From: Saccoglossus kowalevskii
Taxonomy: Eukaryota > Hemichordata > Enteropneusta > Harrimaniidae
Length of the DNA stretch: 64,000 bases
Direction: 5' to 3'
NCBI RefSeq assembly: GCF_000003605.2
Contig: NW_003155740.1
Location: 361,738-425,737, forward strand
Of the stretch, positions 24,573 through 64,000 are shown piece by piece (position 1 is the stretch's first letter; the number at the start of each line of letters is the position of its first letter). Both the position numbers and the translations under genes were made by a program. The notes below the pieces were generated by a model that was not told the origin of the DNA, did no database searches, and worked only from the letters and a program-made list of their open reading frames with translations.

Positions 24573-27500
24573 TCACTGATCATTCTTTTGGGCCTCTCTA
24601 ATTTCGTTCATGAGTGTGTTTAGGGCTCTTGCCTTTGTAGTAAATTTTTCCTCCGAGTCGACAGCTCCGTAATGTGACGATGCTAATAACTCTTTGCATG
24701 GGACTAAACTTTGTATCATTTGCACTAATTCATAGTTTAACTTCAATTCCCATCGCTTGGTGTTTGGGGGTATGTACTTGGGCAAATTTTCTTGAATATC
24801 TCCACCAGCAGAATATATGTCCATGGAGATGGAAACATTAATGAACTTAGAAAGTTTCGTGATGTAATGTTGATGATCTGCCTCGATATCCTCATAACGA
24901 ACTATTTTGTATCTATCCTTGTAGGATGAAGGCATTGCTCGAATTGTTTCTACATTTTGTGTCCATGTATGACAGAATTCGCTTACTGCATTTTGTATTT
25001 TACTGTCCCAATCCAAAGCATCGTATTGCGATTTTACTCCACGTTGAGTTTCAAGAAATGACACTGCAATGGTCCGGGGATCCTGCATGAAGTGGATGAC
25101 TTTCAGAGTAGGGTCTCTCATAAGTAAAATTACGTATTTAATATCGTGCATATAATGTGTTCTGACTGCTATGTTCTTATAAGCATAACAAACGTTTGAC
25201 ATCATACTTCCATCAAGTTCTTTGCAGCCTACGTAAAATGCACCCGACTTCCAACAAACCTGCTCATTCACCAAAGCATGCAGTTGTATCATCTTCTGAC
25301 TAATTGTCATTGTCTTGAAACTTGATACAAAGCACTGCAAATTGGGTGAATCAAACTTACACCGGAGAATATCATGGAGCATTTCAGCCAGTCGTGGAGT
25401 GAACATGCTTTCAGCTGGGTATAGTAATTCAAGACATTCTCGTAATGATATCCCAGGTTCAACAGCATAAAAAAATTCTTTGTTATTTCTAAAAATCTGA
25501 TCAATGAATGCTGAGGCGTACTGAGCAGATGAAAGAATCAATAAGCGGTTTTTACCGTCTTTGTCATACTCATGGGCTGCAATTGCTGCATTCAGTTGCG
25601 GAGTTTCTTCTGTAAAAATCTCTATTCCAGCACCAGCTGTATCTGGCTGTGTGTCAACCTTTGATGGAGCAGGTATCTGCTTAAATATATCTCCCGTATT
25701 GCCGGTAGAAGGTTGTTGTTCAATTGATGCGACCTCTGAGAGCAAAAGCGGATCTCCCCCAATCTCAGACAAAGATCCTTCTTGTGCCTCATTTGATGTC
25801 TCCAAATGTAATAATGGTTCTGGTAGCATGTTCTCTGTACCTGCATATTGTTGTTGCCCATCTGTGTCTAATGTAGCAGATTGTAAGTATTGTGGTTGTG
25901 GTTGTTGTTGTATATGTTGCTGTTGTTGTAATTGAAGCTGTTTTCCATCAACTAAATCCGGAATATACTCTGGATTGCTAATTGGCTGCAACTGCAACTC
26001 GTTCATGTTGTTCCCAGAGTTAATGACATCAGTGTCGGTTTGTGTTGCTTCGATTGATTGATCAGTTAAAACATGATTAACCTCAACATCTTCTGACTCC
26101 AACTGCAGAGAGCTATCACTCACACCATGATATAAATTTGGGTCTAACTGTTGTTGCTGTTGTTGTTGTGCTTGCTGTGGTGTGAGAGAACCACTTGATA
26201 TAACACTATCAGTTGTGTCTTCAACATTTCCCAATTGCTTCTCATCTGGTTGTAGCTGTGGTTCTTCTAGTATGAGAGTACCACCTTGTGTAATACCATC
26301 AGTTGTGTTTTCAATGTTTCCTAATTGCTTCTCATCTGGCTGTAGCTGTGGCTCCTCTAGTATGAGAGCACCACCTAGTGTAACACCATCAGTTGTGTCT
26401 TCAACGTTTCCTAATTGTTCCTCATCTGGCTGTAGCTGTGCCTCGTCTACTATGAGAGCACCCCCTGATGTAACACTTTCAAATGTGTCTTCAGCTATTC
26501 CCAATTGTTCTTTATGTGCTGGTAACTGTGAAGGATGTGGCACACCTTCAGGTTTCCCAGCAATATATTTCTCAGTGTTAACACCTTCATCAACCGATGC
26601 CTCGCTATCACTTTCTTCGTTATCATCATTATCTTCAGATGATGACTCAGATTCTGAACCAATCCATTCCTGCAAATTATGAAAGAAAGACGTTTCAGAG
26701 GATTCTTCTGGCATACTCTCCTCTGACTCGTGCTCCTTATTAGAACCAACGACCTTTTCTGAACTACTCTCTTTATTGATTACCTTTTTCGTAGCAGTTA
26801 ATGTATCTTGATCAACAGTCTTAAATTCATCTTTGACAGCCGGTTTTTGTTTATCACTCATTGTATTTTCTATTTCCACTGTCTCCGAGATTTGTGTATT
26901 CGTGGCGTCTTCTTTACTAGCTGACATGTCAACTAGACCGTCAACCTTGTCAGTTTTAGCTGTTTGTTTTGTGTTATCTACAGGAATACTGTTCAACTTT
27001 TCTTTTGTGGTTCCAGTTTGGGTATGCTTTCCCTTCTTTCCCTTCTCCTGTGAATAAAACATATTTTGGTTTTCATTACAGTGAGTGAAGATTAGTGGTG
27101 ATCATTTTTCTAATTTATTGTACGTGTATGGTGTTTTACCTATTCATACAATAGCAACATATTACAACCAGATTACGTTTATGATTCTTTAAAGAATAAT
27201 TTCCGTACAATAATCTAATTACAGTGTAGAGGCATTTAATAACTGTATTGCAACTCAAAAAATATGAAACCACCCGTTGTTCATGACTGTATGCCCGTCT
27301 GGCTTGATGCTACTATATGCAGTACACTCTGTCGACATTTAAGCCAGACAACAAACACACTATATTTGAATAATCCCACTGCACTAAGCAACGTCGAGTA
27401 CTGCGCACATATGCGACTGATAGGGCTTACTGTGGAATTAATAAATTTTTAGCAACAGGGGTTGAAATCCGCCCCGGGTAGCATTTCTGTACTTATTCGA

Positions 27501-28994
27501 TCGTAGCTAGAAAACAGAGGCCGATAGAGAATAACCGAGATTCGCTGGTATATACAACGTTACCAACATTTCCGTGCAATTCACATGTCATTTGCGTGAC
27601 TGAAAGTTTAAAAAACACGGTGTTTTATATAGTCGGAATATTAATTAAAATACAATAGCGAAATCGACTGACAGGTAGTTCCTTACAAACATTGGTATAA
27701 CATATGTACTACCGTATTCACCTACATCTAAGCTTTCAGGTGATAGAGGTTGTTATAGTAGAATGCTAACCAACAATTACAGAATGTGTGATTCAACGTT
27801 CAATTTTTGCCACGTTTTGCACATGTCTCCCCCTTAATTGAATTAACATCACATTTTGATGCCACATTTTGAATATTTGTTTATAATTTATTTGCTAAAT
27901 TGAACCAGGTAAACATAATTTTTCATTCACTGCACGTGTTAGGCAAAACATAAAATTCAACAAAATAAATAAAGTAGATTAATTTGTAAAGTTTGCAACT
28001 TCAATTTGGTGTTCAGTCGTTAATGAAGCACCTCTCTAAACACGGTGAGCATTCACAACAATCAATGTAAAAGAGTTCATCTAGCTTGCAATAATATTTG
28101 TTTCTTGTGTTGCTAACCATATTCAGTGTCATATTAAATATTGCAACCTGTACACATGTTTATCATATTTTAAAATGCAATCACATTCGAGCATAAATTT
28201 AACTAAATCAATTTAAGCGTATACATCCTCCAACTCCAGGGTTTATGCCGTTATTGTATAAAAATGTAATATCGCATTTTGTACTACAAAACTTCAATTG
28301 ATAAAGAGATTATATAACTTAAGAAAAACACATTCAAGCAACATAACATACTATTACAATTACCCAATAATGTGCAATTGTGTGAGTTGAATTCTAAATA
28401 ATGTAAAAGTACCTCTTTTGAAAAGTAACTATCCTCATCGATGCTCTCTTCATCTTCACTACTGTCCTCAGATTCAGAAACAGCTACTGAATCCTCATCT
28501 TTAACACTCTCACTCTCAGTTTCGCTATCACCCTCGCTATCGGACTCACTATCTGACTCAGTGTCACTACCGGATACCATGTCACTCTCGTCTACTTCGC
28601 CTTCTCCAGAACGCGAACTCGTGCCCGTTTCCTGTTGTGGCTTCAGTCTCTGTTCTTTGAATAAATCAGAGTTTTCAAATAAAAAATGTTTCACCTCATT
28701 GTATTTTGTGTTCACGGTTTCTGGTATTTCGGGTAATCGTTCCTGTATTGCTTCTAATTTGCTGCCGACAACAGGCACCTTGTGTCGCGTTCCATGGTAG
28801 TTGTAGTAGTATGTGACGCATATAAAAGTGAGTAACACTGCCACTATAAGTACGTATCCACACTTGCATTTTCCCCGACGTGCCATACTCTGCGTCACCA
28901 CAGTATCCTTATCCACACCTGGCATGAATAGGAATGGACGTTCCGTATTTACTGCGCTATTTGACTTTTTCCAATCGATTCGATTGTCATACAA
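24573..28994 (-). CDS. Divergent carbohydrate sulfotransferase-like type II membrane protein, two exons
   Basis: Exons 28413-28994 and 24573-27047 join in frame into 1018 aa. A short basic N-terminus (RRGKCK) precedes one hydrophobic segment (about residues 45-64), the layout of a Golgi type II enzyme. A stem of some 600 residues follows, rich in Ser, Asp and Glu, with 30-residue repeats and glutamine runs. Residues about 693-1018 resemble the CHST1/CHST3 family, which moves sulfate from PAPS to sugars of glycosaminoglycans or mucin-type glycans. Visible family marks are KVIHFMQDPRTIAVSF (3'-phosphate binding), VRYEDIEAD and KRW. The 5'-phosphosulfate loop, normally RTGSSF or similar, reads SSAQYASAF and lacks the arginine and the glycine; the usual Arg in VRDPR is Gln. 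Activity is therefore doubtful. The stem is far longer than in vertebrate CHST enzymes. The family call is good; substrate and activity are unknown. Confidence 0.8.
26190..26520 (-). repeat. 90-bp coding tandem repeats in the sulfotransferase stem
   Basis: About three and a half units of 30 codons encode the pattern GGALILEEPQLQPDEKQLGN with a TTDG-containing linker. Units are very similar at DNA level, suggesting repeat-number change by unequal exchange. A glutamine run lies next to the block (about 26,150-26,170). Confidence 0.85.
27048..28412 (-). other. Intron of the sulfotransferase-like gene
   Basis: Donor at 28411-28412 and acceptor at 27048-27050 are both canonical, and the codons join in phase 0 (GAG then GAG). 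The intron is A+T-rich and I see no other feature in it. Confidence 0.8.
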
Positions 28995-29696
28995 TGGTTT
29001 GGTTAGTACCCAATTGCCACGTCGTTGTCATGAATATATACACGGTCAGCAAGGGTACAGCTGGCGCATCAGTATAAAACATTTTCAATTGAAAGCGATT
29101 CATGGGATTTATATGAGAAGCACTGTGTGGAATGGAAAAAGCAATGCAAATTTGTTTGTGTTTTATGGTCATTGTAGTGTAGACGCGCATAATTTGCACA
29201 ATAAATTATTATGGAGGGCGGTTTATTTTGTCTGGTGTCGTTGGGAATTTGTTCTTCAAATATGTAATATAGCGGGCGACGCACAGCTTCGAGCACGTAT
29301 TGCCACTCTGTATTTCAGATGGCGTTTAATTTTAAGTGATGGTATTATTAGTTTCACATCACCACAACGACGATCGACGTATGACGTTTCCCATGTTCAG
29401 AAAAACAATCCACTTATTCTATAAGTTGCGTTCTCTAGCTATGATGCGCCTCTTTGGCATAACTGGGTGAAAGCGTCAACTTGGTTTGTTCTATTTTCCA
29501 TCAATGGACAATTGTACTAAAATCCAAATGAGAAATAACCACACAGTAGTTGGCGAATTGAACAACGTTGCTTTCACTTATGTACATAATCTTCACATCA
29601 CATTAGAGATTCGTCGCTTGAGGGCGTAACGCTTAGGAAAAGACTATTGCAACTCCCTGCAAGTAGAGACATTACACAATTATAAACATTTATAAA

Positions 29697-34681: not shown

Positions 34682-35080
34682 TTATTTCTTCACTCCCGGT
34701 GTCTTGGCTATGTATTCTTTGACATCATCTCTTGCTTCGTGGTTTTTCATTTCATCAAACATCGTCACGAGCTCTTCTAATGCATGTAGTATTGGTTTCT
34801 GCATATGAAGCATTTTACTGAAGTATATGCCAAGTAAACGGCCTGTTGGGCTACTCTTGGTCCCCAATATATGGACGTGTCTGGCTTTAAGACACAACTT
34901 ACCAGCAAGACCTCTCCAATCTGACTGGAAGTCCCGTTGGACATCAAGATTTTCGCAGAGCTTTCTCCACAAGTCACTGCTGATCTGATTATCTTGAGGT
35001 GTCCAGTCTTCATTGGTTGCCCTAAACCATTCGGCATAAGTCATATCATCAACGTTGCAACTATAATCAGTACAACCAGG
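34682..35080 (-). other. Death domain, last exon of copy A
   Basis: The 132-residue exon product contains DLWRKLCENLD, DWRGLAGKLCL, TKSSPTGRLLG and a final EARDDVKEYI. The TKSSPTG stretch is close to the death domain of UNC5 netrin receptors (ATKSSPTG), supporting a ZU5-UPA-death tail of UNC5 type. Death domains form homotypic and heterotypic assemblies in apoptosis and inflammation. Confidence 0.85.
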
Positions 35081-38000
35081 CTGTAATAAAAGAACAAGTG
35101 ATAGAATATGGCATAGTTCCTGTCAAGAATTCAAATGCTCTGTGATTATGAAATTATATGCAATTACTGAGAATAAGTTTAAAGGAATGTTGATCTAGCA
35201 ACAAAGGAAAAACCAAATCTTGGCTCGAATCTCCGAAAAAGTATAACGTGGGCCTGTAAACCACTAGTTTTGTCATTCCAAAATTGACTGCACATGTATT
35301 ATATGTGTCACATATTCAAGTATTATGATGTAACGTTTGTATTAAAAAAATCGAGTAAATTTGATCAGATAAAAAAAACTAAATTATATGCATAAGTATT
35401 GTACGACATAGTGAGGGCTTACTAGGTTTGACAAAACAACAACGTGCATCTGCCACCCACAATACCAATTTCATTGAAATCAATCCAGTCATGTCCGAGA
35501 AACAATTGCAGACACGTTCAAGGGTTGGGATTTATCAAAATAAATCAAAATGACTACCAGCTCGCGATCATACCATTAAAGAAAAATAGGGGCTTGTTTA
35601 TCTTTTTAAACGATGTCTATGAATTAATTTTGAACATAATTGCATGCCAGGATAACAGAGAAATAAGTAACAAAACGTGCATCTGCAACCCAACAAGTAT
35701 TGCCGTCAAACCAAGTGTGCTTGAAATCAAATATAAGGTATTACGTAAGTATTTACTTCTAAAATAGATTTATTTGGTCGAATCAAAAACAAAATTCATT
35801 TGCATATTTCCGACATCATACTTTTTTTGTACAAAGTCTAAAACTAATCACTTAATACATATGCGCACACATCTCCTCAGAGTAGTGACATCAGAAAAAA
35901 ATAATATATTACTGATTTATAGTTCCTGTAAATAAATCATATGTCTCACCTGTCTAATACGAGGGACACATAGCTCTACTTCTTTCTCAAAATCCGAATC
36001 TGGTAAGAATACACATAATATACAATAAAAATCGTCTGGAAGGTCATCTTGTCTAACGCACTTGAACGTGAACGTTTCCTGTGTATCTTGGTCAGATGTG
36101 AGGTCTGATAAACGTATGAACTTTAAAAAAAATAACATAAATTAAATGTTAAATTGAACTGTCACTTTGCGATGTAAGCGCGTGGAATACGAAATTAAGA
36201 ACCGTAAGTAAGTGAGTCATTTGACATTGATAATGAACCTTTTCCAAAGATCCTCCTCTCTGTTTCCATTGCTCATCAACATGCTTTATGTGCACTTTCA
36301 TCTTGATATCACTCACACTTATAGCCAAGGATCGACACTGTGTCCATGGTTTTGTTTCTGACTGATGCTGAAAATAGGACAAAAGTTTGTTATGCCAAAC
36401 ATATGAGGCTGGTTAAGTATATGCAGGAAATCGTTTTACTATGTATGTGAATTTATTTTTAGTGTATTAGACATTTATATTTTTGATAGTATTTTCCGAT
36501 TGTTTATGCAAACATATGCAGCCTGATGTCTACGATAGAAATGAACAGTGCATTACCTGTAACGAATGATCGGGGTCTAATGAAGTATCACACCAAACCC
36601 CAATGCTGATTTGAATACAAGTATCGGTGATGGGCTCACTTCGCATGCCCACTTTGATGCGTCGCTGGGCATTGCTTTCTTCTTTGGCTTCACCAACTAT
36701 TTGATAGTCTGTGAAATGCTCAAGGAAAATGAAGACGCGTCCGTCGTTTACCAAAAACGTATCTTCTGACTGAGTGACCCAAGGATCACCTGACTTTTTT
36801 GTGACCGCACTGAATTTCCAAGAGTTCTCATTAACTGCTGAATGAGGACAAGACAATATAACATCTTTAAGAAAAGTCGTTCCATCAGGTCCGCAGCTGA
36901 TTACTGGGGTAAGAACGCATTTGCCAGAATGAAATTCATCCTGATAAGACTTCTTTATATACAAGTAAACGCGTTTAGAATCGCCATACTCGATGGCACC
37001 AGGTGGGATGTAAAGGCTCACTTCTTGGGTTGGTATTTTCAAATAGCCGCCACTTGCGTCAAATAGACTTCCAACCAAGTTATTTGTGTGATAAATCTGT
37101 CCTACGTGCAATGCGCATGTCACGAATTCTGCAACAGTATGCGCAAATGAGTGGTTTTCCTCCATCTCCTGTAGAATATAATCAGCACTAGAATGTATCA
37201 CATTTATTTAGCACGAGTTTCTAAATTTCAATGGAAAGAATTACAATTTCAAAATAAATATCATTATGTATTACCTCATGATCTGTTACCCGAACTACTA
37301 ATGATTCTGTTTCATTTTGTGTAGCTGTTGGCACTGATGACTCATTGATGAGTGAGCCTATCCCATAATTGTTGTCTGTATTGGCCAGTAGTTTATCTTG
37401 AACAACACGACGAGTGTAGTATATTTGATCAGTATCTTCCTGGTCTTTGACAGTCCCCATTATATAATAATTATACAGATCTTCATCCTCCTTTTCAAGT
37501 TTTGTATAAACCGTGGAGGAGGCACAAACATGCCCGGGAGTGCCTAATGGTGTCAAGTTCCTGTAATAACCGAACAATATTACATTTGTGAGCTATATAA
37601 ATAAACTATACTATTATTTCTTATATAGTTTAGATACGCATTGCTACATGAATTGTATAATCGTAGATATTTCCCCCGTTTCGTTGTCGAGATTGTCTAA
37701 TTATTACCCATATTCACATTTTCGTCAAACACTTTTCAATAACTTTAAAGCTAGGTCTTCTTTCTCGTTCATCCAACCAACAATTCTTCATCAACCTAAA
37801 TAACCAGTTTGGACAACATGGCGGTTGTAGTTGGTGTTTTCGCTGAGCAAGTAAACTTCTGATCTGTGAGTTAAAATTGATATTAGTAAGAATCATGGAA
37901 TTCGAGTTCTTTCTAACTGTTGAAATACTATTATCTTTAAAGTGCAGAAATTGGTTTATGTAAATTGAAAACGGTGAAAACATGTGTTTTCCACTGCTTT

Positions 38001-41000
38001 AAACAACTCAAACAACAAGACCACATCAATTATAAAGTATTGGATTATTATCTTGGATATTTGATAAGGTCTGCAATTACTTACTTCATTGTCCGCTGAA
38101 TGAGGATATGGTACAAGCATATTGGGTTGGAAACTTGTGTCCGCATCATACGCATTGAATACCTCCCAGCACAATTGCCCAAACATAAAAATGTCACTAG
38201 CTTGAGAGTATATGTTTCCACAAACAACTTCAATTGGCGACCTACATTGACAACAGAATTACACAAAGTAATAACTTGAGCTGATGTATTGGTCTGTGAT
38301 GTTTAAAATAATTAAACGAGAAAGAATATCTTTGACTGACTGACACAAGTGAAAGCTTGTATTGAAGTTATCAGAAACATACCAACGTATCTGATCTGGT
38401 TGCATTTGCCTCGTCTTAACACAGTCATATAGTCCTCTGTCATATAATCCCAATTCTAACAGGCATGCTCTACCCAGTCTGCCAATCTTTGCCTGAAGAA
38501 AAGAACGAGGTGTACTATGCTAAGGTGTTAGTGATTTGTTAGTGAATTGCACGGAGGGGGATATGGGTCAATCAAGTGAGAACAAAAACAGAAACAATGT
38601 CATAGTTAGAGTATTGTAGCTACCTGTCCCGACTGTGTAACATATACATGTGCTGCCCTTAGATCGCAGTGCAAAATACCAATGTCCTCAGAATGAAGAT
38701 AGGCCATCCCAGATGCTACTTGGGTTAGGTACTCAATCAACTTGTCACGGTCAATCTGTTGCTCCTTTTGCAGGGCTATATATAGAATATTTCGTTTCAC
38801 GTTATGATACTCCGACATCTGTCAGAAGAAACAATGACCATGTAAATATTTACCAATGCTTGGAGGTATACCGAATTACAGAATAATTTTCCACTATCTT
38901 AACAATTTTTCTAATATGTAAAATAATTATGTTCATACTTGAATGGTTATATTGTCCTGTATATGGAATGAAAGGACACGTCCAATATTTGGATGTGATA
39001 ATTGCAGCAATACTTTGATTTCCTCTCTTGGTCTTCCATGTGCAAATAATCCCTTGTGAAGTTTTTCTTCTAGTCGAATCTGTAACAATCATATTTATAA
39101 AAAAAGGTTGCACTTTAAGAGTGTCTAGTCAAATTGAACAACAATGTTTCAAACTGTGTGTGAGATGTGTCCTGTACAAACCATTGAAGTTTTATCGGCA
39201 GTGACATGGCCGCGAGTACACTGTACATCAGGTGCAGTGATATCTTCTAGATTGCACGGGAACTTATTCTGTGAATAAGGAAGATATTACAGACTATGAA
39301 TATGGTTAAATACTGTAAGGGCTCCTCATTTAAATTCTAAATTCAATCAATAATAACATGATTCTGTTTTTTTCCAACGAATCTAGCCCTCTTAGCAAGC
39401 CTGGGAAATGTTGTAGGATGTAACCACGGTAAGATAAACCAATGGACCATAAAATTGAATTTTCGCATTGGTTTAGTACCCACTAATTTATGCCTAGGTC
39501 TATTGTAAATCATGTACTGTAACTTCCTGATACTCACATTCATAGAACACAGTGGTGGTATTCGTGATGTCTTTTGGTCGCTTATACTCGGTGGAATACC
39601 CTACAGAATGTAAAGATGAGAGGTTTTTACTAAGACAGTTCTAATATTATGAAAAAAATATAATAACAATTGCCGTAAGACACTTAACTAAGATGCACGT
39701 CAAGTAGTTGTATGGGAACTAAAATAACAATGAATACCCTGTCTGGCTCTGAACCCTGATTGTGGTCTCTTGGTGGAGGTTTATGTAATTCTTGTCTGGA
39801 TGCTGGATCTGCAGATAAAAATCACATTTGTTACAGTTCGTACAAATGAATTGTATGATTATAGTACTGACAGTAGTAAGTATTCGCATTACCTGGTCTA
39901 GCCATAGTCCTGGAGTATTTCAACAAACTGTCATGAAGGGTATCAACACTTTGTCTTTTACTTGGTGTTTTAATGAGGCTATGAAGCAGAATACTAAAGA
40001 TTGGCGTTGGTATACATGCTGGTTGTTTCAATCGGCACCCTCCAATAACCTATGTGAAACATAACACATTATTGAGAATATTTAAATACATCACACCATA
40101 ACTGATCACTAGAAATCGAACTGTTTTTAGGTTTAGATCTTGATGTTTTGGATTATATATTCATATAATTCTACATTTATGGTTTGCAAGTGCTTGAGCT
40201 TACCTGGAGAACGATTTCATCAGATGACATTCCGTATAACTCTGTGTAAGGTTGACATCCATGTGTTAAGATTTCATACAACGTACATGCCAACATCCAT
40301 GAATCAGATTTTCGTGAAAAATAGTAAGGAGCTTGGAATGATTCTGGTGCACTCCAGCGCCTGGCAATATTATCATGTGCATTACCTAAGATGTATAAAT
40401 AAAGTATCATATATCAGGTCGATATCAAGATATGATTGATTACATAATGGTGTTTTTTCTAGCGATTTGACCAAATAACGAGAACACAACATACCTAAAA
40501 AAGATGTCATGTCCGACTCTATATTGGATGTGATATTCTTAGTATATTCCCCACTATTTCTTGTAAGTTCTCTTGCCAACTTGAACTCACAATATTTCAC
40601 TTTTACTCTCTTGCTGGCTTCAATCTTCACTCTGTAATTTTTGGCGATCACATCCCGTAGCACGATATCTTTGGTATGGCAGTACTGTATGGCTGATACT
40701 ACAGGGATGCAGATATCATGTACCATATTATACATCGATAAGAAGTTGTCACGTGCGGTATGTTCTGTTAGGTAATCAAGAAGATTATCCTCAAAATATC
40801 CAGTTATTGTGAACATTGGTAGTTGGTGACGACAAAACCCATACAGGTCGAGTATGTTGTTATGTTTCTGTAGCTTACGTAACATCGATAATTCGGATAG
40901 AAACATTTCTGATGATGAGTGGCTATGAGTTTGGCTTATTTCTTCTGAAACACGAATTTCCTCCAAGGTGCTCGGAACTTTGACGCAAACAATTGACCCA

Positions 41001-44000
41001 AAAAGTAGACCACTCCACTTCCATTGTCCACATGTATTATCATTCGGCTCCACTGGTGTAACATGGCTGGTGCTGATCATCCCTATCTTTTGGCACTTCT
41101 TGAGAATAAATTGTTGATTGACTTCTTGAAGTTGTTGATTTGAAACCATTGTTGTAGAATCTTCATCTTGTAGTAAAGCAGCTGATGTGCTCTTTTTCAG
41201 TACTGTCCTTCTGTGAGCCAGTTTATTTACACAGCGAAGGGGATGGTATATTAAACTTCCAAGAGAGTTGCTATGAAACTGCCTGAGCCAGTGATTCGAG
41301 GTGGACAGGATATCGTTTGACACACTGGTCACACTAATGTATTTCTTGTCAGAGATACCTTCAATAACTTTCACACAAAAGTCTACAACAAATAAAAGCA
41401 AATTTTACAAAAAAATTATGAAAAACCATGTTGTAAATAAACATAATTTTACATAATATCCAATAGTTACCTTCATCCCTAGAAGATTCCAGTAGTTTCA
41501 CCAGTGTAGTTAACAAAAATGCAAGGATACTTTCCCTGCATATGGGTTGTTGGTTTAGCTTGTACATTAAAAATCCAAGATATTCTAGACTTTGAAGTTT
41601 GTCATCAGGATCAGTTGAGACAATTATCTGAAATAAAATACTTGCCTAATTTAACATTGCATACATATAGTTTTCTTGATACATAATATCGGCAAATGAG
41701 AATGTACAGTAGTACATTAGAATGGTAACAAGCCTTACCTTTTGAACAAGACAACTAATCGTAGCCAGTATTGCAAACTTGTCAGTATTCGATATTTCCT
41801 CTGCCACTATCATACCTCTATCTCCCTTGTCTATTTCTGTTACTTTTTGTGACAGTGATTCCAAGTATGTGGCAGGAGATACGAAAGTCTCAGTACATCT
41901 AGTTTCTTTCGTTTCTAATAAATTATCACTGTCTTCTTGTATTCGTTGTAGTGCGTGAATACAAAAATATAAGTCACACTCCACTTCAAGCCCAGTCTGA
42001 CTTTCCCACGGAGAATCGTTGGGAGATACAGGATGAAGATATAAATTGAGCAGAGCTTTAATATCAGAAAAGTCACCAATTGGAAGATATTTTTTTGACA
42101 GAACCCCCATTAAACGAGCATTTATTAATGTGGAAATTACGACCTTGTATGTTAGTATTTTCTCACGGATGACAGGATACTCCTCGGTTCTTTTGAAAGA
42201 CTCGCGTAGTGTCTTTTCAACACTAACAACTGAAGATATAACTTCATGCGTAGTTTTACAACTGAATATGATAGGCATTATACACAGATCAATACGTTCC
42301 CTAATGGCTTCTAGAACAGCAATCTGAACTCGTGATGTACTGAGGCATACAAGTTCAGCCAACTTCTCAACTGATGCCCTGGGTAAAACTTTGTACAATA
42401 CATAATCCTCCACGTCTGCCTTTGATTTCAGATCTTGCAACCCTACATAGAACTTACAAAATGCAGTGATACCAAGCGCATACTTGCGTGGAAGATTGTG
42501 GCGACTGAATCGCTTCTCTATAGGTAAAAATAATAAAACAATTGACATTGTTAATTTCCTTCTTTTTTCATCTATCCACCAATCAATCCCTCCATCCATC
42601 CAATAAACCACTTACGATGTGGTTAGTATATATGTTGTTGTTGTCTTGCGAATAGAAGATATTTAACTTACCTGATTCTTTTATTTTGTCATTCCTAGCA
42701 AGTAATCCTTCTTTCATTCCACTATCAAAATAATCAATTGCAACATACTCAACTGGAACTTCAATATTTGTTGTAACATCCAAATCGTCCTTTATATTTA
42801 CATCCCCTACATCTCCCTCTGAGATGATGATTAAAATAAAACAGAATCGGCTTAAAATACCCAATATGTCATATATATTATGCCCGAACTTACCGATTGA
42901 ATAAAAATAAGAAATAAAATCACAATTAATTAATTGCCTGACACATTTACACATTTTATTTTGATATAAAGACAAATTGTTTTACCTGATGGCAGTTTCT
43001 TTTTTCTCTTTCGTTTCTCAATTTTGTACTTAATAGCTCTAGTCATCCTTTTTTCCACCTTAATATTGTCTTCTTCACTCTGACCTTTACTGAAATCCAA
43101 CATTGTTAACTGTTCAAATACGGTAGGTACCCTGCAACCTGTCTCCAGGATGATGCATATCACCAAATGGTTTAAATGGTAGTCTACTGGAAATATTTTT
43201 TCAATGAAGGCATCACTGAACTCTTCATTGAACTTTTTGGTTATTGGAAGAATGGTTACTGAGTGACGTTGTATATATTTTCGGTATATTCTATCCTTGG
43301 TATAACCAAGAGGAAACTGACTGCGGTCATAAAAGCATGGAATCCCATCTTTTGTCAGAGGTGAAATGATACGATCTGGTATCAAGCTTTCATTCGACTC
43401 ATTGGCGCAGAGAATAAACACTCTTTGTCTTTCATCTTTAAATCCAGATAAAGCTAAATACATGAGAAATACAGAATGTGGTTATTATATTGCACATAAC
43501 AAATTGTCGCATCAGACACATGGCCGGTTCAAATCCTTCCTTAGGCTGAACATCAAAAGGGTCGACCCCCTACCCTGTGTGAGTGTGCCACAGACTTAAT
43601 GCAAAGGCCTATTCCACTGGCCAAGATTCATTCACTAACGAAAGTTACTTTGGGAGAACCTTTGGTTAAGGTCCGCAGGTGCTTGTGTTCGACCGAGTCT
43701 TGTTGACGCCAGGATAACGAAATAAAATTGTCATTTGATAGAGAGATGCCCAAACAGCCCTGTCATGTAGTCCCAAACATGAAAATGTGTCAGCACTAGC
43801 ACTTGCAATTTGCACATACAAAAAAAGTCAGGAGAGACATTCAATGCCCGGAACTGTCGCCTGGCACAAAAAACATTTAATAATAAAAAAAAATGGGGAC
43901 TAAAAAGTGCTATACGAATTTTTGAACTTGATATGTGTTCTTTTGAAATCACGTTATCATGGTGAGTTTCCTGGGTTGAAGTTTTGTGGAAAATAGATAA

Positions 44001-44096
44001 TAAAAGGAATACATCAAATAAAACGTTTATGTAGTATAAAATTTACTTACCAAACTCAGTATCATCAACATACGATTCCAAATCAGTGTAGGACAT
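34682..44096 (-). CDS. TIR-like / tandem tyrosine-kinase-like / ZU5 / UPA / death-domain protein (copy A), complete
   Basis: Twenty-one exons join in frame into about 1,808 aa: 44051-44096, 42986-43453, 42672-42818, 41739-42517, 41471-41627, 40495-41382, 40204-40385, 39893-40049, 39738-39808, 39538-39600, 39182-39268, 38939-39079, 38624-38818, 38383-38492, 38085-38241, 37718-37863, 37275-37560, 36557-37168, 36203-36367, 35950-36120 and 34682-35080. The donor of exon 19 may instead lie after 36191 (+4 aa). Order: TIR-like (about residues 20-130), helical region (221-640), kinase-like 1 (about 650-940), kinase-like 2 (about 1000-1265), linker, ZU5 (about 1391-1490), UPA (about 1500-1680), death (about 1700-1795). 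No signal peptide or membrane segment is seen, so it should act in the cytoplasm. A function in death or immune signalling is inferred from the domains only. AATAAA overlaps the stop (34681-34686). A divergent paralogue starts at 55630. I know no named gene with this layout. Confidence 0.88.
35950..37168 (-). other. ZU5 and UPA domains of copy A
   Basis: Exon 36557-37168 encodes a clear ZU5 core (LFDASGGYLKIP, VSLYIPPGAIEYGD, FTDYQIVGEA). The end of that exon plus the next two match UNC5-type UPA: LAISVSDIKMKV and FTFKCVRQDDLP line up in order with the UNC5 UPA. In UNC5 and PIDD these domains hold the death domain in a closed state; whether that applies here is inference. Confidence 0.8.
37718..39268 (-). 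other. Second kinase-like domain of copy A (predicted pseudokinase)
   Basis: A tyrosine-kinase fold is recognisable from its C-lobe: YLTQVASGMAYLH, HCDLRAAHVYV, ASDIFMFGQLCWEVFNAY, CCPNWLFRLMKNCW, ERRPSF. HRD is HCD with the following Asn changed to His, DFG is RLG, and APE is PIE. No clear glycine loop or ATP-anchoring lysine is seen in the N-lobe. Catalysis by this domain is unlikely. HxDLRAA resembles Src-group kinases. Confidence 0.85.
39893..41023 (-). other. First kinase-like domain of copy A
   Basis: Tyrosine-kinase-like: beta-3 Lys667 (VCVKVP), alpha-C Glu696 (FLSELSML), LRDVIAKN with Asp776 and Asn781 in place of HRDLAARN, EFK in place of DFG (KYCEFKLAR), then WSAPESF and DSWMLACTLYEILTHGCQPY. 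Three exons carry it. The glycine loop is weak (GLLFGS). Loss of the metal-binding DFG aspartate predicts weak or no activity. Confidence 0.85.
41023..42517 (-). other. Conserved helical region of copy A, family not recognised
   Basis: About 420 residues lie between the TIR-like domain and the first kinase domain. They are rich in leucine and predicted helix, with conserved stretches EKLAELVCL, AVLEAI, EKILTY, NARLMGVLS and YHPLRCVNKLA shared with copy B. It may be an ARM/HEAT-like solenoid; I cannot assign a family by eye. Confidence 0.6.
42986..43453 (-). other. TIR-like domain of copy A
   Basis: RVFILCANES gives a first strand, GIPCFYDRSQFPLG a strand followed by a box-2/BB-loop-like RDxxPG variant, and RHSVTILPITKKFNEEFSDA the next strand and helix. 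The pattern and size fit TIR. A glutamate near the SxWCxxE position of NADase TIRs (Glu100) is conserved in copy B, but its alignment is uncertain. Confidence 0.72.
43490..43735. repeat. Possible SINE-like sequence in intron 1 of copy A
   Basis: GGCCGGTTCAAATCC (43523-43537) resembles a tRNA B-box, and GTGTTCGACC occurs further on. I see no matching A-box. Weak call; otherwise this part of the intron is plain. Confidence 0.25.
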
Positions 44097-54221: not shown

Positions 54222-54498
54222 NNNNNNNNNNNNNNNNNNNNNNNNNNNNNNNNNNNNNNNNNNNNNNNNNNNNNNNNNNNNNNNNNNNNNNNNNNNNNNN
54301 NNNNNNNNNNNNNNNNNNNNNNNNNNNNNNNNNNNNNNNNNNNNNNNNNNNNNNNNNNNNNNNNNNNNNNNNNNNNNNNNNNNNNNNNNNNNNNNNNNNN
54401 NNNNNNNNNNNNNNNNNNNNNNNNNNNNNNNNNNNNNNNNNNNNNNNNNNNNNNNNNNNNNNNNNNNNNNNNNNNNNNNNNNNNNNNNNNNNNNNNNN
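54222..54498. other. Assembly gap (277 N)
   Basis: A run of N whose true length is unknown. It directly precedes the LTR and interrupts unit B of the long duplication, so it probably hides more of the same insertion. Confidence 0.99.
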
Positions 54499-55629: not shown

Positions 55630-58600
55630 ATGTCCTGGTGTGAATCGGAGTTGCCCGATGATGACGTCGAGTCAGTTATGTCAGTAACATCTTCAGGTAT
55701 CTATATGTTCTATAAATACTTGGCTACAAATCAGATAAACACCTTAACTTCCTTGTTTGCATAGTATACGTTTGCATTCGATTATGTTTTAGTTTTGTCG
55801 GGAATCGGAAGAGATGCAACACGAAGAGTATTTGTTCTCTCTGCCAATGAGACGAATTCAAGCCTGATACAAGATCGTATAATTTCCCCATTGAAAAAAG
55901 CTGGAATTCCCTGTTTATATGACCGCAATAGTTTTCCTCTCGGGTTTACTTTGGAAAAAATTCACACAAGCTGCATCACACGACACCCAGTTACTATTCT
56001 TCCAATAACGAAAAGGTTTAATGAAGAGTTCAGCGACAATTACATTGAAAAGGTGTTTCCTATCGACTATCATATCCGTCATCTGGTAGTATGCATACTC
56101 CTTGAATCAGGATGCAAAATACCGACCAGATTTGAGTCATTGACGCAGTTGGACTTCAGTGGAGCACAGAGTGACAAAGATGCCAATAAACAGGAACATA
56201 GAATGGTTAAAGCGGTGAAGAGAAAACTTGAGCGAACGAAAAGAAAAGACAAAAAAGGTGAGTGGCTGTGAAGGTTCAATTCAGCCTGTAGGGCTACTCC
56301 CATAGTTAATTTTTGAAAATCCAGGCCAATTTTATTGTCCAATAACGCCCTCAACGTCAATTGTTTTGGGTCAAGTTTTCAACTGGCCGTGGAGCACTCC
56401 CACCCACGACTAAAGTACCCCGGGTTATATAACACTTTCATTTTTTGAATTAAAATATTTTTTGTTGAATTAAAACATATCTTATCTCATTATATTTAAT
56501 TTGCTTCTTTGTATCAATAGATCCAAATGAAGATCTGTGTAGCCGTTCAGAAACGTTATCTCTAATGTCAGACAATACATTAGTGGAGAATCAGGTTGAC
56601 ACTGGTTTGCGTATCGAACAGGAAGGCAGTGAAAGTTCAGTCGAATTTGTTGCAATAAATGATTTAAACAATCCACGGCAACAATCGACAGGGGTACATG
56701 TCAGATATGACAAGATTCAAGAGTCAGGTTAGTTACTACATCGTTTTTATATATATTTAATATCTAACGTTATATTTTAGGATGCGAAGAAAGAGTGGTT
56801 AAAGTGATATTGACAAATTTGTCCAACCGGAGGGAGCATTTTTTTTGTAAAAGGCTGCACTGAAACAAATATTTTGTCCCAGTCTCTAATGACAACATTT
56901 ACAATGTTCTTCATTCTCCATCAGTTATTTCATCACACTTAGGCATTGTAGGTATTTTATTCCACTTTTAGTCACATTTATGGTGTTTTTAAGTATAAAC
57001 CAGCTTCAAGCGAATAACCGACATTTCAGAAGCAGTCGTATCAACAGATGACCCTCGCGCGCAAACAAAACAAAAACAACACGCTACACTACCGCCACTG
57101 ACCTAATTAAAAAGTAATACAACACACGTCATTTCCGGGTGAATAAACAATGTATTATAACCCATATTAATGTGTAATACATAAGGAGTCGTAAAATTAG
57201 TTTGAGGAAATAAAGAGACGTACCAAACGTCGTTACACGACGTCAACACATCCTGGAGTGCCGCCAGAAATTCAAATTAGTCAGTGCTAGCCAATTACAC
57301 AGTGTGGCAGGGCTACGAAATGACCGGCCGATACATTTGTGTTTATCGATGATTATCTCCGGGTTAAAAGTATTTATATAGAAAATAACTCGTTGTTTGA
57401 CCTGTTCAACAAATTACAGGTGATCAACCGAGACACTCGGACAAACCTTATATGGGAATCAGCCATTTTACGATCTATCATAAAGTCTTGGCAATCTCAG
57501 AAGCCTGCAATGACGTCTTGGATAGATTAGAATTTAATAATCAACCGCCAAATGCTTGAATATGATTGGCTGATAGAGCTAATTAGGCACATTTGTTATG
57601 TATTGCACATGACATGCAGTGTGTGGTTTACTCAATGACATATCTTATTGAACGCTTCATGTATCAATTATCTTTATAGATCACAAACTGGAACAGCGTG
57701 ACTTTGGTATAAAGTACGAGGAAGGAATCTCTGCATTTCATGCATTCTACACAGATATGCATGGGTGGAAGAATGACATAGAAGAATATATCATGCAGAA
57801 AGTTATACCTAATGCTCCGGTTGAGAAGTTGGCAGAGTTGCTGTGTTTTCAGAACACACGACTGGAGATTGCCGTCCTGGAAGCTATAAGAAATAGAATA
57901 ATCACACATTTGGTCCCAAATATATTCAGTAAGAAGTTGATACACTCCACCAATTCTTCTCTTATTAGTGTTGAATCAACATTACGTCTATCATTCCGTG
58001 AGATAGAGGACTATAATGTTACATGTGAAAAAATACTGACATACCAACTCATACTTTCTGCACTTGTAAACGCACGCTTGTTGGGTGTTCTTTCAAAAGA
58101 ACTTCTCCCTGGCGATTCACTCACTCCAATAATAACACTACTCAATTTGAAACAACACGCTATTTCTCCGCATGCTGCAGTATGGACAACACAGGCGAGA
58201 ATTACCCTAGAATGCAATGTATACTACATTACTAATGCGTTACAGAGAATAAAAGAGGACGTAGGAAGCTGGAAGAAAGTCAAGACATCTATTACAAAAT
58301 CAACTTTAACCTCGATGAGGAAGGTGACATCTACATCTACATATTTGGACAAACTCTCATACAACTTGGAACGAATGAATGAATCGAGTGGGGGAAAGAG
58401 AACTGCTGAGAAAATATTACAAACCGATAAATTTGCAGTATTGGCCGCAACTGATTTTTTAGCTTGTAAGGTAAGAAAAAGTGATGCATTTGTCTCATTG
58501 CGAATAATAAACATCTAAAAATAAACGAACTTGAAAACCATCATAGTATATATTTGATATTACTGTTAATACAATATAGTATTTATGTCTATCATTGAAT

Positions 58601-59875
58601 TTTAGATCATGAACCAAGATAAGTTGGACGACAATCTTAATTATCTAAGACTCCTTGGATACCTAATGTACGGGATGAACCTGCACCGCACGTCAAGAGA
58701 AAGTACCCTTGTATTTCAATTGTCTATTCTAGTAAAGTTATTGGAGAGTTCAAAAGACGAAGGTAAGATATTTATTTATTAGTCCCCGTTCGGACGAAGT
58801 CCGAAAACGGGGACTTATAATTCGGTCTCCGTCCGTCTGTGTGTCCGTGTGTCCGTGCGTCTGTCCGGAGTCATATCTCAGAATCCCTTGGACCGATTCT
58901 GTTCATTCTTTGCATGTGCCTAGTACCTTATGTGGGATATATGCACATGCAGTGGTTTAGCGATCCGATTCAAAATGGCCGACTGGCAGCCATCTTATTT
59001 TTTGAAAATGTCGTATTTTGGACATGCTTTGTCAGTTTTCATTCAAATTTAGTACATAGATCATACATGTTAGGATACATGTCCCCGACCGTCCGTGAGT
59101 TCCTGAGTTTGTCTGTCCGATCGTCTGTGTGTCCGTCTGTCCGTGTGTCAGTCTATCCAACGTCATATTTCAGAATCCTGAGGACCGATTCCGTTCATTC
59201 TTTGCATGTGCCTAGTACCTTATGTGGGACATATGCACATGCAGTGGTTTAGCGATTCAATTCAAAATGGCCGAATGGCAGCCATCTTGTTTTTTGAAAA
59301 TGTGTATTTTGGACATGCTTTGTCAGTTGTCATTCAAACTTGGTACATAGATTATACATGTTAGGATACATGTCCATGACGATTTATTTTGCAATTGGAT
59401 CAAAGATGGTCGACTGGCAGGCATCTTGTTTTTGTTTTTTTATGCAGTATCTTGGACGTGCTCTGTCAGTTTTCATTCAAATTTGGCACATACATGTACT
59501 TTATACATGTTAGGATGCATGTCCATGACAATTCGTTTCAAAATCTGGTCAAGGATGGCCGATTGACAGCCATCTGACTTTTTGGCCTTACTACTATATT
59601 TCCACAATTTATGTACCATTTTCATTCGTATTTGGCACACACATCATACATATCAGTGTGTTTCATAATCAGATCAAAGATGGCTGAATAACAACTGTTT
59701 TTATTTTGGCCATATTACTATGACACGAAACACGTGTTTTGATGTAAATAAACAATCTGTTGTATACGCCACTTGGAACTTAAGTTTCTAGGACATGCTC
59801 GCGACAACCCCTTCGCTTTAATATGACGAGCACAAAGAGAACTTAACGGGGACTGTGTCATTTTCAATGACTTGT

Positions 59876-59946
<71 letters not shown>

Positions 59947-60013
59947 TTATTTAATTAATTAATTAATTAATTAATTAATTAATTAATTAATTAATTAATT
60001 AATTAATTAATTT

Positions 60014-60069
<56 letters not shown>

Positions 60070-60128
60070 TTTTATTTGTTCGTTCGTTTGTTTGTTTGTT
60101 TGTTTGTTCGTTTATTTATTCATTTAAT

Positions 60129-60199
<71 letters not shown>

Positions 60200-63100
60200 T
60201 TTTGCAGCATTCTGTGTCAACATTATTGAAGGTGCTAAAGACACTCAGGACATGAAGTGCATTGGTATCCACCAAGTATTAGAACATCTTAAATCTACAC
60301 CAAACGATCAAGTGCGACAATTCCATAGCAGCATGTTTGGTCAGTTAATCTACCATCCTTTACGATGTGTGAATAAATTAGCCCAAAAAAGGACGGTCCT
60401 GAAACGAAGCATTGGGGATGAAGCGATAAAACCCAAGGACAATCCATTCTCTGTGTCTTTCCAACAGCTTCAAGAAATAAACCAGAGGCTTATTCTCCGA
60501 GAATGTGGAGATATAAGCTTGACGAGTAAGGATTCGGTCGCGCCATCAGAGCAAGATATAAGTGCAAACACACGATGGGCGTGGAACGGCCACCTTTTTG
60601 GTAGTATGGTAACTGTGAGTGTCCCAAGTACCTTGGAAGAGATATTAGGAAATGATGAAGATATGAAGTACCAAAGCTATGAAGAAATGCCCTCCGTAAT
60701 GTTTCTATCAGAAATGTCATTGCTGCATAAGCTACAGAAACATGACAACATAATCGACCTGTACGGATTTTGTCGTCATCCACTCCCTATTTTCACAATA
60801 ACTGAACATCTTGAAAACAATCTTCTTGAGTATCTTACAGAACGTACGACGCGAGATAAGTTCATGTCACTTTATGAATTGGTACATGATATCTGCATTC
60901 CTGTGATATCAGCCGTACAGTACTGTCACACAAATGAGATCGTCCTCAGAGATGTGATTGCCAAGAATTTCAGAATTGAGATAGGTCAAAACAAGTCGAT
61001 AAGAGTAAAATACTGTGATCTCAAGTTGGCCAAAGAGCTACAAAAAAATGATGGGAAATATGGTTCGGTTAATCCCTATTTTACCATTTTGGGAGACAAG
61101 TCTGAAATGGTGGATGACACAAATTGCTATTTAGGTATTTGATTTATGATAATCTAAATAGTATTAATGTATAGAGTTGTGGTAATCTGTTCTAATCAGA
61201 AAACTCTTTACGGACATATAGTCTTCAATGGCACTTATTAGGTTGATGACATAGATACTAATACTAATAATGTATGTTTGTCGTCACAAACTGCATAGGA
61301 ACATTTCAGTTTTGTACGAATTCAGTATTAATATTATCTATATTTTTCATATAGTATTATACATACATAAACTGTATACATAAATATCCTGTTTCATAAC
61401 TCATAGGTACTGAGAATGACAACATTGCCAAACGATGGAGTGCTCCAGAGTCGTTTGTTGAGCCCTACGTGTTTTCCAAAAAATCTGATGCATGGATGCT
61501 GTCATGTACATTATACGAGATTTTAACTCACGGATGTCAGCCTTACACCGAGTTATATGGTACGACGTCTGATGACATAATGCTGCAGGTATGGCTTACT
61601 TTATTGATTACATATTATACAGGTGGAATCGTGGAATTAAGGCAAAACATAGGTGGGTGATGAACTATCGTTGAGAGTAACAGTTATACCTTAATAAAAT
61701 TTGAAGATTTGTCTTCCTGAGTGTCAGTACAGTAAGCAATTGTTTTATCACCTCGAATTCATGGAGTTTACTTTTCTAGTTTGAGTGGTGATTTTGTAAT
61801 TATGTACACCACTCTGTGATGCATAACAGACTCTACAATGATAGACAAGCTGATAATAAATATTTTCGGCTCCATTAGTGCCAAGAATATTATGTGTTGT
61901 GTATGGTTGCTTCATCTATTTTCACGCACCTGTCTACAATTCACTTTGCGCGATCTGCCATTTATATTGCATTTGATTTTCCATGTGACCAACGTGCGAA
62001 CCTATGGTTTTGCGAACGCGATCCGATCAGTTATTTGCGCCATAAATGTGAAATTGTTACCAAAAATGTTTTTCCTGTATTTGTATTCAAATTTGTTCAT
62101 TGCATTGGTTGTCTTATTCCGCTGTCCAACTAAAACTCTTTTCTAATTCACATTTAGGTTATGCGAGGTCTTCGTCTCAAACAACCTGCCTGCATACCAA
62201 CAACAATATTTGACATTCTTCTTCATGGTCAAGTTGTGATACCAGCTAAACGACTTTCCGTTGATACACTATATGATAAAGTTGTTGCTCATTCAACAAA
62301 TCTACCCCAACCCGGTAGGTAATGTAGATGTCTCAATACCACTAATCTATTCCCATAGACGACAATCTTGAAGTTTGATTTAATAGTATGTTTAAAATGA
62401 TTCACCACGCATGATATGTCTATGAATATAAGCTTAAATAAATTTCAATCTGTAGATGAGTCATCATAACTATTGTATTGCAAATCAGTACCAGTTTTTT
62501 TTACTATTATTATTCTGTTACTTACTTTGTCAGATCCAAGAGACATAAAGAAAATACACTTCCCACCGCAAAGGGATCGTAGCCAAGGAATGGAACCAGA
62601 GAGGGTAAACATCCATGATCTTCAGTCATGCCCTTCGATGTGTCTTTTAATATGTGTTCATATTCAGTACCAAGGGTAGCTTCTGTTGTGAAACCAGTGC
62701 AAATGAATTTAAATATATCAACTGCTTACAAAATAAATGTTATATTTCAGGGCATTCCTAAACAGCCATACAACTACTATTATTCATCGGATTCTTATTG
62801 TATGGGCGTAAGTAACATAAGTCATCCACACAAACTATGCATTTCAATAAGATTAACATACTTTTTAACACACATAAAATGATGCCACCGTTTTACAATT
62901 TAAATTTCAGAATCATTTTCCATGCAGATTAGAAGACATCACAGCAACAGATGTACAGATGAAAAGGGCCGAAACTGCTGGGGCGTTTGGTTATGTATGT
63001 CAATAATTTATTAATGATCTAATTAAAGTATAATATCACAGGGGTGGTGACGTGGCCATTAATCATGTATTCAATATTCATTTATTGTAGGTTACACTGG

Positions 63101-64000
63101 AGGAGAAACTTGACACAAGGTTATTTCCACATGGCAGATCGAGATTAGAAATAAATAAACTTAGAAGTCTATCACATCAGAATATAGGGCGCGTTTTATC
63201 ATGCGTTCTACAGGAAGATGTCACTATACAAGTATAAACATATTTTCAAAATGTTATTGCTTATATACCATTAAGCTTGAATGCGTGACTTGTGTGTTTA
63301 ATCAACTTCATTATTTGTTCTTTCTGCAGGTATCAGAGTATTATGATACAAAGACAACTCTACTTAACGTAGCTTTACACAAACAATGCACTGATAAATT
63401 AATTGACTACCTGATGCAGGTGGCATCCGGAATGGCTTACCTTCACGAAAATTATTTGATACATTGTGACCTAAGGGCTGCACATATATACATTTCTCAA
63501 AATGATCAGGTAATTATCAACTTTGTTTTATTCACCGGTGGTCAATTTATGTTAGATACAGCAAAATATGTTGGAGTGTCTGAATGTATGTTGGTCAGAC
63601 CATAATTCATCACGTTTCTTTATATTGTTGTTAGCCATTCAATTGAAGGTTTCGTGCCTATATCCCTAGTTATTATTTTTGAAATTTTGTTTTACCTATA
63701 TTTTATTCAGTATGATATGATACACTCAGTTACGTGTTGTTTACGTTCGATTAGGTGTACGCTGACAGAGTACACTGACCTCAATTGTCGCTTGGCCTTG
63801 TCCCGTACATGTTTTAATTCGGTATTGACTGACTAATGAGTTTTATTGCATGACACTCTTTTACATACACTTACAATTTGTATACCAGGCAAAAGTTGGC
63901 AGACTCGGTCGTGCATGTCTTCTGGAAGTTGGGTTATATGATCTATGTGTGCAAGACAGTGTGAAAATAAGGCAAATGCTGAAGGATCAAATACGTTGGT
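55630..64000 (+). CDS. TIR-like / tandem tyrosine-kinase-like protein (copy B), 3' end beyond the window
   Basis: Fourteen exons join in frame into 1,198 codons: 55630-55696, 55793-56257, 56521-56727, 57680-58470, 58606-58762, 60208-61134, 61407-61588, 62158-62314, 62534-62604, 62751-62807, 62911-62994, 63091-63231, 63330-63509 and 63889-63998. The window ends on the donor GT of exon 14. Exons 5, 7, 8, 9, 12 and 14 have exactly the lengths of their counterparts in copy A (157, 182, 157, 71, 141, 110), and all phases agree. Present: TIR-like domain (about residues 33-140), helical region, kinase-like 1 (about 685-970) and most of kinase-like 2. In kinase 1 the ATP-anchoring lysine is Ser700, while Glu731, Asp811, Asn816 and Asp833 (DLK for DFG) remain. 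In kinase 2, HCD and RLG are degenerate as in copy A. ZU5, UPA and death exons are expected further right but not seen. Confidence 0.87.
56728..57679 (+). other. Intron 3 of copy B
   Basis: A 952-bp intron with canonical ends; I see no repeat or reading frame in it that I can name. Confidence 0.7.
58781..59854. mobile_element. Non-autonomous DNA transposon-like element in intron 5 of copy B
   Basis: Starts AGTCCCCGTT and ends AACGGGGACT, a perfect 10-bp terminal inverted repeat; the left end folds further (TTCGGAC/GTCCGAA). The interior has diverged monomers of about 300 bp (near 58,860 and 59,160, then more decayed) with shared TTTGCATGTGCCTAGTACCT and ACATGTTAGGATACATGTCC. No transposase frame is seen. 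Superfamily not assigned. Confidence 0.65.
59871..60203. repeat. (TTTA)n / (TTAA)n compound microsatellite next to a splice acceptor
   Basis: About 330 bp of TTTA repeats with a central TTAA block and a TTTG/TTCG interruption near 60,076-60,112. It ends only a few bases before the exon 6 acceptor (TTTTGCAG, exon from 60208), so it supplies the polypyrimidine-side sequence of that splice site. The Phe-Ile-Tyr-Leu repeat readable upstream of exon 6 is a by-product. Confidence 0.95.
61589..62157 (+). other. Intron 7 of copy B
   Basis: A 569-bp intron with canonical ends. No feature recognised. Confidence 0.7.

Follow-up and report, generated by a model that had tools for sequence, protein, structure and literature searches.

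The 64,000-nucleotide stretch of the Saccoglossus kowalevskii genome analysed here (assembly GCF_000003605.2, contig NW_003155740.1, positions 361,738 to 425,737 of the forward strand; hereafter the window, whose own numbering is used below) holds on its minus strand, from 44096 to 34682, a gene in which a TIR-like domain, a helical-looking region, two tyrosine-kinase-like domains and a linker are followed by an UNC5-type ZU5-UPA-death tail. This fusion gene is probably a single gene for a large cytosolic adaptor, formed when intron recombination brought ZU5-UPA-death exons from one gene family to the 3′ end of a gene from another. Its exon structure suggests a chimera of two families, both found in the genome, that was produced by exon shuffling in phase 0. 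Every module is known, only the combination appears to be new, and the shuffling of TIR domains in invertebrates is already documented (PMC2575513). The initial annotation of this DNA had proposed one gene with TIR-like, tandem kinase-like, ZU5, UPA and death domains; the helical-looking region, a sister gene within the window and the origin from two families come in addition to it.

Gene model and domain content

The gene model consists of 21 exons with 5,391 coding bases, corresponding to 1,796 codons and a stop in one frame, and all 20 introns have GT-AG borders. The outer ends of the model are those of the initial annotation and were known beforehand, hence they are not independent, and the exons were rebuilt one by one. 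The single long frame claimed earlier was recovered in this way, with the computed length of 1,796 codons replacing the estimate of about 1,810. An in-frame stop is located 5′ of the ATG, and an AATAAA lies about 100 bases 3′ of the stop codon. In leave-one-out scoring, with each exon scored after training on the other exons versus the introns of the same model, all 21 exons had positive values in the frame of the model, at 0.11-0.53 bits per codon. The 130 intron windows of 46 codons gave a median of -0.42 and a maximum of 0.03 bits per codon, a contrast favoured by the counting of the background on these same introns. An alternative donor of exon 16, situated 12 bases earlier in the same frame, is possible, and paralogue B, described below, favours the donor used.

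Exon 1 (44051..44096) provides the start codon and residues 1-15, and exon 2 (42986..43453) the TIR-like domain, with a Pfam match at residues 27-146 (approximately 43062-43421). The match to TIR_2 reached 19.2 bits in the whole protein and 24.6 bits for the piece alone, with a cut-off of 28, and at the other end of the protein Death reached 12.8 and 18.4 bits, respectively, with a cut-off of 22.6. Since these single-sequence scores stay below the Pfam cut-offs, both assignments rest on family profiles. A profile of four TIR exons from the genome matched TLR6, metazoan TIR-STING and other TIRs with expectation values (E) of 2e-4 to 7e-3, the first eight PDB matches, with E up to 7e-3, all being TIR proteins, and three of the four members of the family matched TIR_2 at E<=1, the best of them at 4.7e-7. 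By this profile match, the domain is a member of the TIR superfamily. Likewise, a profile of five death exons matched UNC5B (2e-8), MyD88 (3e-6) and, far more weakly, Pelle (0.3) and IRAK3 (0.7), and Pfam Death was matched by all five death-family members at E<=1 (best 5e-6).

Behind the TIR-like domain, exons 3-4 (41739..42818, intron 3 included), which lack a relevant Pfam match, hold a basic linker and the start of the helical-looking region, which continues through exon 5 (41471..41627). Its end lies in exons 6-8 (39893..41382, introns included), together with pseudokinase 1 (from approximately 41017). This region of about 340 residues between the TIR-like domain and kinase 1 (residues ~221-560), absent from the initial annotation, had no relevant Pfam match; in PDB, a designed protein was matched at E 5e-5 with no stretch passing by itself, and the next match had an E of 0.6. 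From the look of its sequence it appears to be helical, and it might be armadillo-like. Exons 9-10 (39538..39808, intron included) form a short linker between the kinases, and exons 11-16 (37718..39268, introns included) contain pseudokinase 2. The Pfam domain PK_Tyr_Ser-Thr matched in two stretches above the cut-off (E 2e-65) and, when scanned alone, gave 115 bits for kinase 1 and 118 bits for kinase 2.

Exon 17 (37275..37560), a linker with a TVYxxL motif, is separated by intron 17 (37169..37274; 106 bases, phase 0) from exon 18 (36557..37168), which comprises the ZU5 domain (approximately 36806-37069; 67 bits, E 2e-18, above the cut-off), an HFT motif (36710-36718) and the start of UPA. The UPA-like region extends over exons 19-20 (35950..36367, intron included), and the death domain (approximately 34712-34963) and the stop are placed in exon 21 (34682..35080). 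There is no separate Pfam match to UPA, and UPA was assigned because the whole tail aligns in one stretch to UNC5B (PDB 3g5b): residues 32-394 of the phmmer query (363 residues) correspond to residues 5-374 with E 5e-19. Judged by this alignment, the tail is a contiguous UNC5-type ZU5-UPA-death supramodule, as the initial annotation had recognised. Of the domains named there, the Pfam search thus placed the kinases and ZU5 above the cut-off, TIR_2 and Death below it, and UPA nowhere by itself. Consistent with the earlier observation that membrane segments, FERM and SH2 are lacking, hydropathy revealed no transmembrane segment across the 1,796 residues (highest 19-residue mean 1.53), and no Ig, TSP1, transmembrane, FERM or SH2 match was found in Pfam at E<=1.

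Two families in one genome and the joint between exons 17 and 18

A tblastn search of the front part against the organism's own genome (572 Mb, 4,830 contigs) revealed relatives hereafter called family 1. The sister gene (paralogue A) lies on the plus strand at 55768..63999, running past the end of the window, about 12 kb from the fusion gene on the same contig (C4507:417.5-429.3 kb, ~70% of it inside the window), and has the order TIR-helical-kinase-kinase, with no ZU5 found. Paralogue B is situated near C4507:458-465 kb, with its 5′ end lost in a gap, and C2465 carries a further, more distant locus. A huge open frame at the kinase exon of paralogue B turned out to be a run of N and not protein. 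The order of the kinase pair is common to these three loci, and in A and C2465 a TIR precedes the pair. Between exons 4 and 17, exon ends of the fusion gene match those of paralogue A at all nine junctions compared and those of paralogue B at all eight, with two junctions judged on the acceptor side only. The counterpart of exon 17 in paralogues A and B and in C2465, where the homology is weak (E 0.02), stays open through a Tyr/Pro-rich tail up to a stop codon; a donor before this stop is possible, as the loci were read from genomic DNA. The TVYxxL motif is kept in A and B and not in C2465. Outside the fusion gene, C4507 yielded no ZU5, and neither did C2465. Furthermore, a partial kinase-2 match is present at C4507:502.5-503.2 kb, and a TIR match on C1421, with the surroundings covered over the first 10 kb.

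The ZU5-UPA-death tail occurs elsewhere at two places on C4034 (L041, L043) and one on C1351 (L044), whereas C4460 (L047) holds UPA and death matches only, with no ZU5. These family 2 relatives are 41-61% identical to the window gene in the aligned parts. No TIR or kinase match at E 0.01 was present in the flanks of the tail loci of C4034, C1351 and C4460 (about 30, 20 and 20 kb, respectively), and none of the 37 matches of a genome-wide kinase-pair search, obtained from 57 scored candidates, fell on these contigs. Within what was scored, both halves occur together only at the locus of the fusion gene. On C4034 and C1351 the ZU5 exon stands behind coding-looking exons with a helical-looking region and a domain without a Pfam match. 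The latter had been read by eye as TIR-like, a reading rejected as neither Pfam TIR nor the family 1 TIR profile matched it. The second ZU5 exon on C4034 (L043, ~5740-5770) is frameshifted, by an assembly error or as a pseudogene.

At the joint itself, the donor of exon 17 and the acceptor of exon 18 are both in phase 0. The 5′ end of exon 18 agrees with that of the family 2 ZU5 exon, which at all three loci read (two on C4034, one on C1351; gene models drawn from genomic sequence) has a phase-0 acceptor and is preceded by an exon that looks coding and whose donor is in phase 0 too. In the simplest history, recombination between phase-0 introns would have replaced the end of exon 17 with the family 2 tail. 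The last 46 codons of exon 17, without an aligned counterpart in the paralogues, score 0.26 bits per codon. The ratio of nonsynonymous to synonymous divergence (dN/dS) is low in both halves. Of ten comparisons, six have a finite dS, of 1.2-3.0, and give ratios of 0.13-0.27 (TIR, helical region, kinase 1 twice and death twice); dS is saturated in the remaining four, both ZU5 comparisons included. Judged by these ratios, neither half looks like a decaying remnant. Both halves are probably carried on one transcript.

Several observations weigh against this reading. The join of exons 17 and 18 is its weakest link, spanning a 106-base intron and being known from genomic DNA alone, and ZU5 is found in one of the four family 1 loci with readable 3′ ends, the three sisters being without the join. 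A shorter form could terminate within intron 17, where a stop and an AATAAA (at 37208) occur, and exon 18 begins with GAG ATG G, where the Met as second codon has a passable start context, so that a separate short protein is possible. The dS values, saturated in four comparisons and at 1.2-3.0 in the others, the score of exon 10 (21 codons), which is 0.39 in another frame versus 0.31 in the used one, and the TIR and Death scores, each below the Pfam cut-off when taken alone, point the same way, as does the TIR exon, which as a lone query finds no TIR in PDB. The mechanism discussed below is drawn by analogy only.

The strongest competing explanation of the gene structure is that of two transcription units, a TIR-helical-kinase-kinase gene ending at the TAG at 37221-37223 by read-through of the exon 17 donor, and a separate ZU5-UPA-death gene starting from the Met of exon 18, or a captured 3′ fragment. 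The exon 17 homologue runs open to a stop in all three other family 1 loci with a readable 3′ end, C2465 with the weak homology mentioned, and the stop and AATAAA inside intron 17 as well as the usable start in exon 18 fit such an arrangement; five A[AT]TAAA hexamers occur in 4,024 intron bases, giving about 0.13 expected per 106. However, the two halves are only 106 bases apart, and the codons read through on retention of intron 17 look intronic (-0.13 bits, with only 17 codons before the TAG), whereas exon 17 is coding-like up to its donor. In its acceptor and phase, moreover, exon 18 is still like an internal exon, and its three family 2 relatives have no Met at the start of the ZU5 exon. 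We consider two units unlikely. A single gene with the given domain order is well supported by the frame, the coding potential and the paralogue exon ends, as far as sequence comparison goes, and the earlier proposal of one gene holds in these respects, with the join of exons 17 and 18, absent from three paralogues, as the part they do not reach. A scan of the joint for bacterial-type promoters was uninformative for an animal.

Probable pseudokinases, TIR domain and possible mechanism

Kinase 1 had a Src/Abl ancestor as its best PDB match, and in comparison with it shows LRDVIAKN (residues 774-781) for HRDLAARN and CEFK for ADFG (CEFKLAR, residues 797-803), with the DFG Asp changed to Glu. The best PDB match of kinase 2 was EGFR, with TYK2 and JAK3 also among its matches; it has HCDLRAAH (residues 1112-1119) for HRDLAARN, the catalytic-loop Asn being replaced by His, and GRLG for TDFG (GRLGRA, residues 1131-1136), with Arg for the DFG Asp. 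Across the four loci examined, kinase 2 has RLG or RWG at the DFG place. Both domains are thus likeliest pseudokinases by their motifs, and of the allosteric pseudokinase pair suggested initially, it is the pseudokinase part that is supported. The JAK-style identity proposed with it was rejected, as there is no FERM or SH2, neither kinase has the DFG Asp, no intact second kinase is present and the best PDB matches lie elsewhere.

An enzyme in which one kinase is active and phosphorylates partners brought by the TIR or the death domain seems about as improbable as two transcription units. Kinase 1 retains the catalytic-loop Asp and Asn and, in VCVKV, what judged by eye could be the beta-3 lysine, and might show weak activity given these residues; kinase 2 retains the catalytic-loop Asp. 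Nevertheless, the DFG Asp is Glu in one and Arg in the other, the catalytic-loop Asn of kinase 2 is His, and the position of the beta-3 lysine in kinase 1 is occupied by Ser in paralogue A and His in paralogue B.

Alternatively, the gene product could be a NADase of the SARM1 kind that brings about cell death through its TIR, in line with the NAD-type TIR signalling considered in the initial annotation. In favour of this is the combination of a TIR with a helical-looking, perhaps armadillo-like, region; relative to the ARM-SAM-TIR order of SARM1, however, that of the fusion protein is reversed, with no SAM match. Furthermore, an alignment of four TIRs of the family shows no WCxxE glutamate where it would be expected, a place taken by a gap and Ser in the HMMER alignment to TLR6. 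The available part of a survey ties this glutamate to NADase activity (PMC7075850). The TIR is therefore expected to dock and not to catalyse, and we regard a NADase as very unlikely. The loss of the DFG Asp from both kinases, together with the missing NADase glutamate, makes a scaffold likelier than an enzyme. An assembly error placing a ZU5-UPA-death fragment beside a kinase gene, for which draft contigs and nearby gaps (N run at 54222-54498) could be invoked, is hardly credible, as there is no N between 34682 and 44096, the joint measures 106 bases, and the DNA of exons 17-18 matches the genome once, itself, with no second haplotype of the joint.

Most likely, by analogy with proteins of similar parts, the fusion protein would be a scaffold with a ZU5-gated death domain. 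Its TIR would serve for docking on other TIR proteins, and the kinase pair with the helical part would act as scaffold and conformational switch. ZU5, as in UNC5B, would keep the UPA-death part in a closed state that a signal then opens. The freed death domain could then join a MyD88/Pelle/IRAK-type or a cell-death assembly. If this is true, TIR, two pseudokinases and ZU5-UPA-death in one chain would link receptor-adaptor signalling to death-fold assembly without a relay. The presence of both families and several unfused sisters in the genome makes phase-matched exon shuffling directly readable and offers unfused controls for function.

The HFT motif at the end of ZU5 (residues 1511-1513) is present in all four aligned family ZU5 exons. 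It also occurs in four of the five other readable ZU5 loci (L001, L004, L005 and L007, not L006), out of eight looked at among the 31 other ZU5 matches in the genome; it is hence probably a general ZU5 feature in this genome and not a mark of this gene. In the tail alignment it lies over QLG of UNC5B. According to the available part of PMC3210808, PIDD, CARD8 and NLRP1 cleave themselves at HF/S or SF/S at the ZU5 end, such self-cleavage is generally initiated by Ser, Thr or Cys, and the cleavage Phe is equated with Leu-677 of UNC5B. In UNC5B and NLRP1, ZU5 packs against UPA and restrains the death-fold part, as stated in the part available of PMC8081665. By analogy, self-cleavage at HF-T into a front part and a UPA-death part that stay associated is possible, and the recurrence of HFT at several loci raises the question of ZU5 self-cleavage. 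It is also conceivable, yet rather doubtful, that the protein acts as a pre-cleaved switch like NLRP1 or PIDD, cut by itself at HF/T, with the TIR-helical-pseudokinase half as a sensing or tethering lid. Removal of the lid would free a UPA-death fragment nucleating a Myddosome- or PIDDosome-like assembly, so that TIR input would be wired to death-domain output in one polypeptide.

Comparison with known systems and further observations

Among known proteins, UNC5B shares the three tail domains in the same order and in one alignment. UNC5 receptors, however, have Ig, TSP1 and a transmembrane part, none of which is in the fusion gene, where TIR and kinases stand in front, and UNC5B has QLG where the fusion protein has HFT. 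MyD88 resembles the fusion protein in carrying both a TIR and a death domain, with the match to the death profile given above, and IRAK and Pelle combine a death domain with a kinase. The fusion protein differs from these in that its TIR and its death domain stand at the two far ends of a chain of 1,796 residues, with two tyrosine-kinase-like pseudokinases between. JAKs also have two tyrosine-kinase-like domains in tandem, differing in FERM, SH2 and an intact second kinase. PIDD1 and NLRP1/CARD8 resemble the fusion protein in ZU5-UPA before a death-fold domain, and the fusion protein has an HF-T at the position of their cleavage, as far as the available text of PMC3210808 and PMC8081665 goes. 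They differ from it in that the fusion protein has Thr for Ser and no LRR or NACHT match.

Lineage-specific shuffling of TIR is common in invertebrates. In amphioxus, 20 of 28 TIR combinations are specific to it, according to the available part of PMC2575513, and the part available of PMC6321704 names ecTIR-DC proteins as invertebrate TIR hybrids. The difference is that ZU5 is not mentioned in the main text of either paper. The order TIR-kinase-kinase-ZU5-UPA-death was not found described in the available text of the open-access literature listed, to which most subscription papers and the survey of bivalve TIRs by Gerdol and others do not belong, and 'TIR-ZU5', 'ZU5-Death' and 'kinase-ZU5' did not occur in the open-access literature searched. 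Within this scope, the initial statement that no described family has this order holds.

Apart from the fusion gene and its sister, the window contains on the minus strand an acidic open frame of 842 codons with tandem repeats (EEPQLQPDEKQLGN...) at 24576-27101, and a further acidic open reading frame with a hydrophobic stretch at 28287-29027. On the plus strand, pieces at 8498-17694 resemble, by eye and by a motif, an aldo-keto reductase gene. Outside the window, the mitochondrial contig C4830 (L050) carries cox1 on one strand and, on the other, frames judged by eye to be cox2-like and nad1-like.

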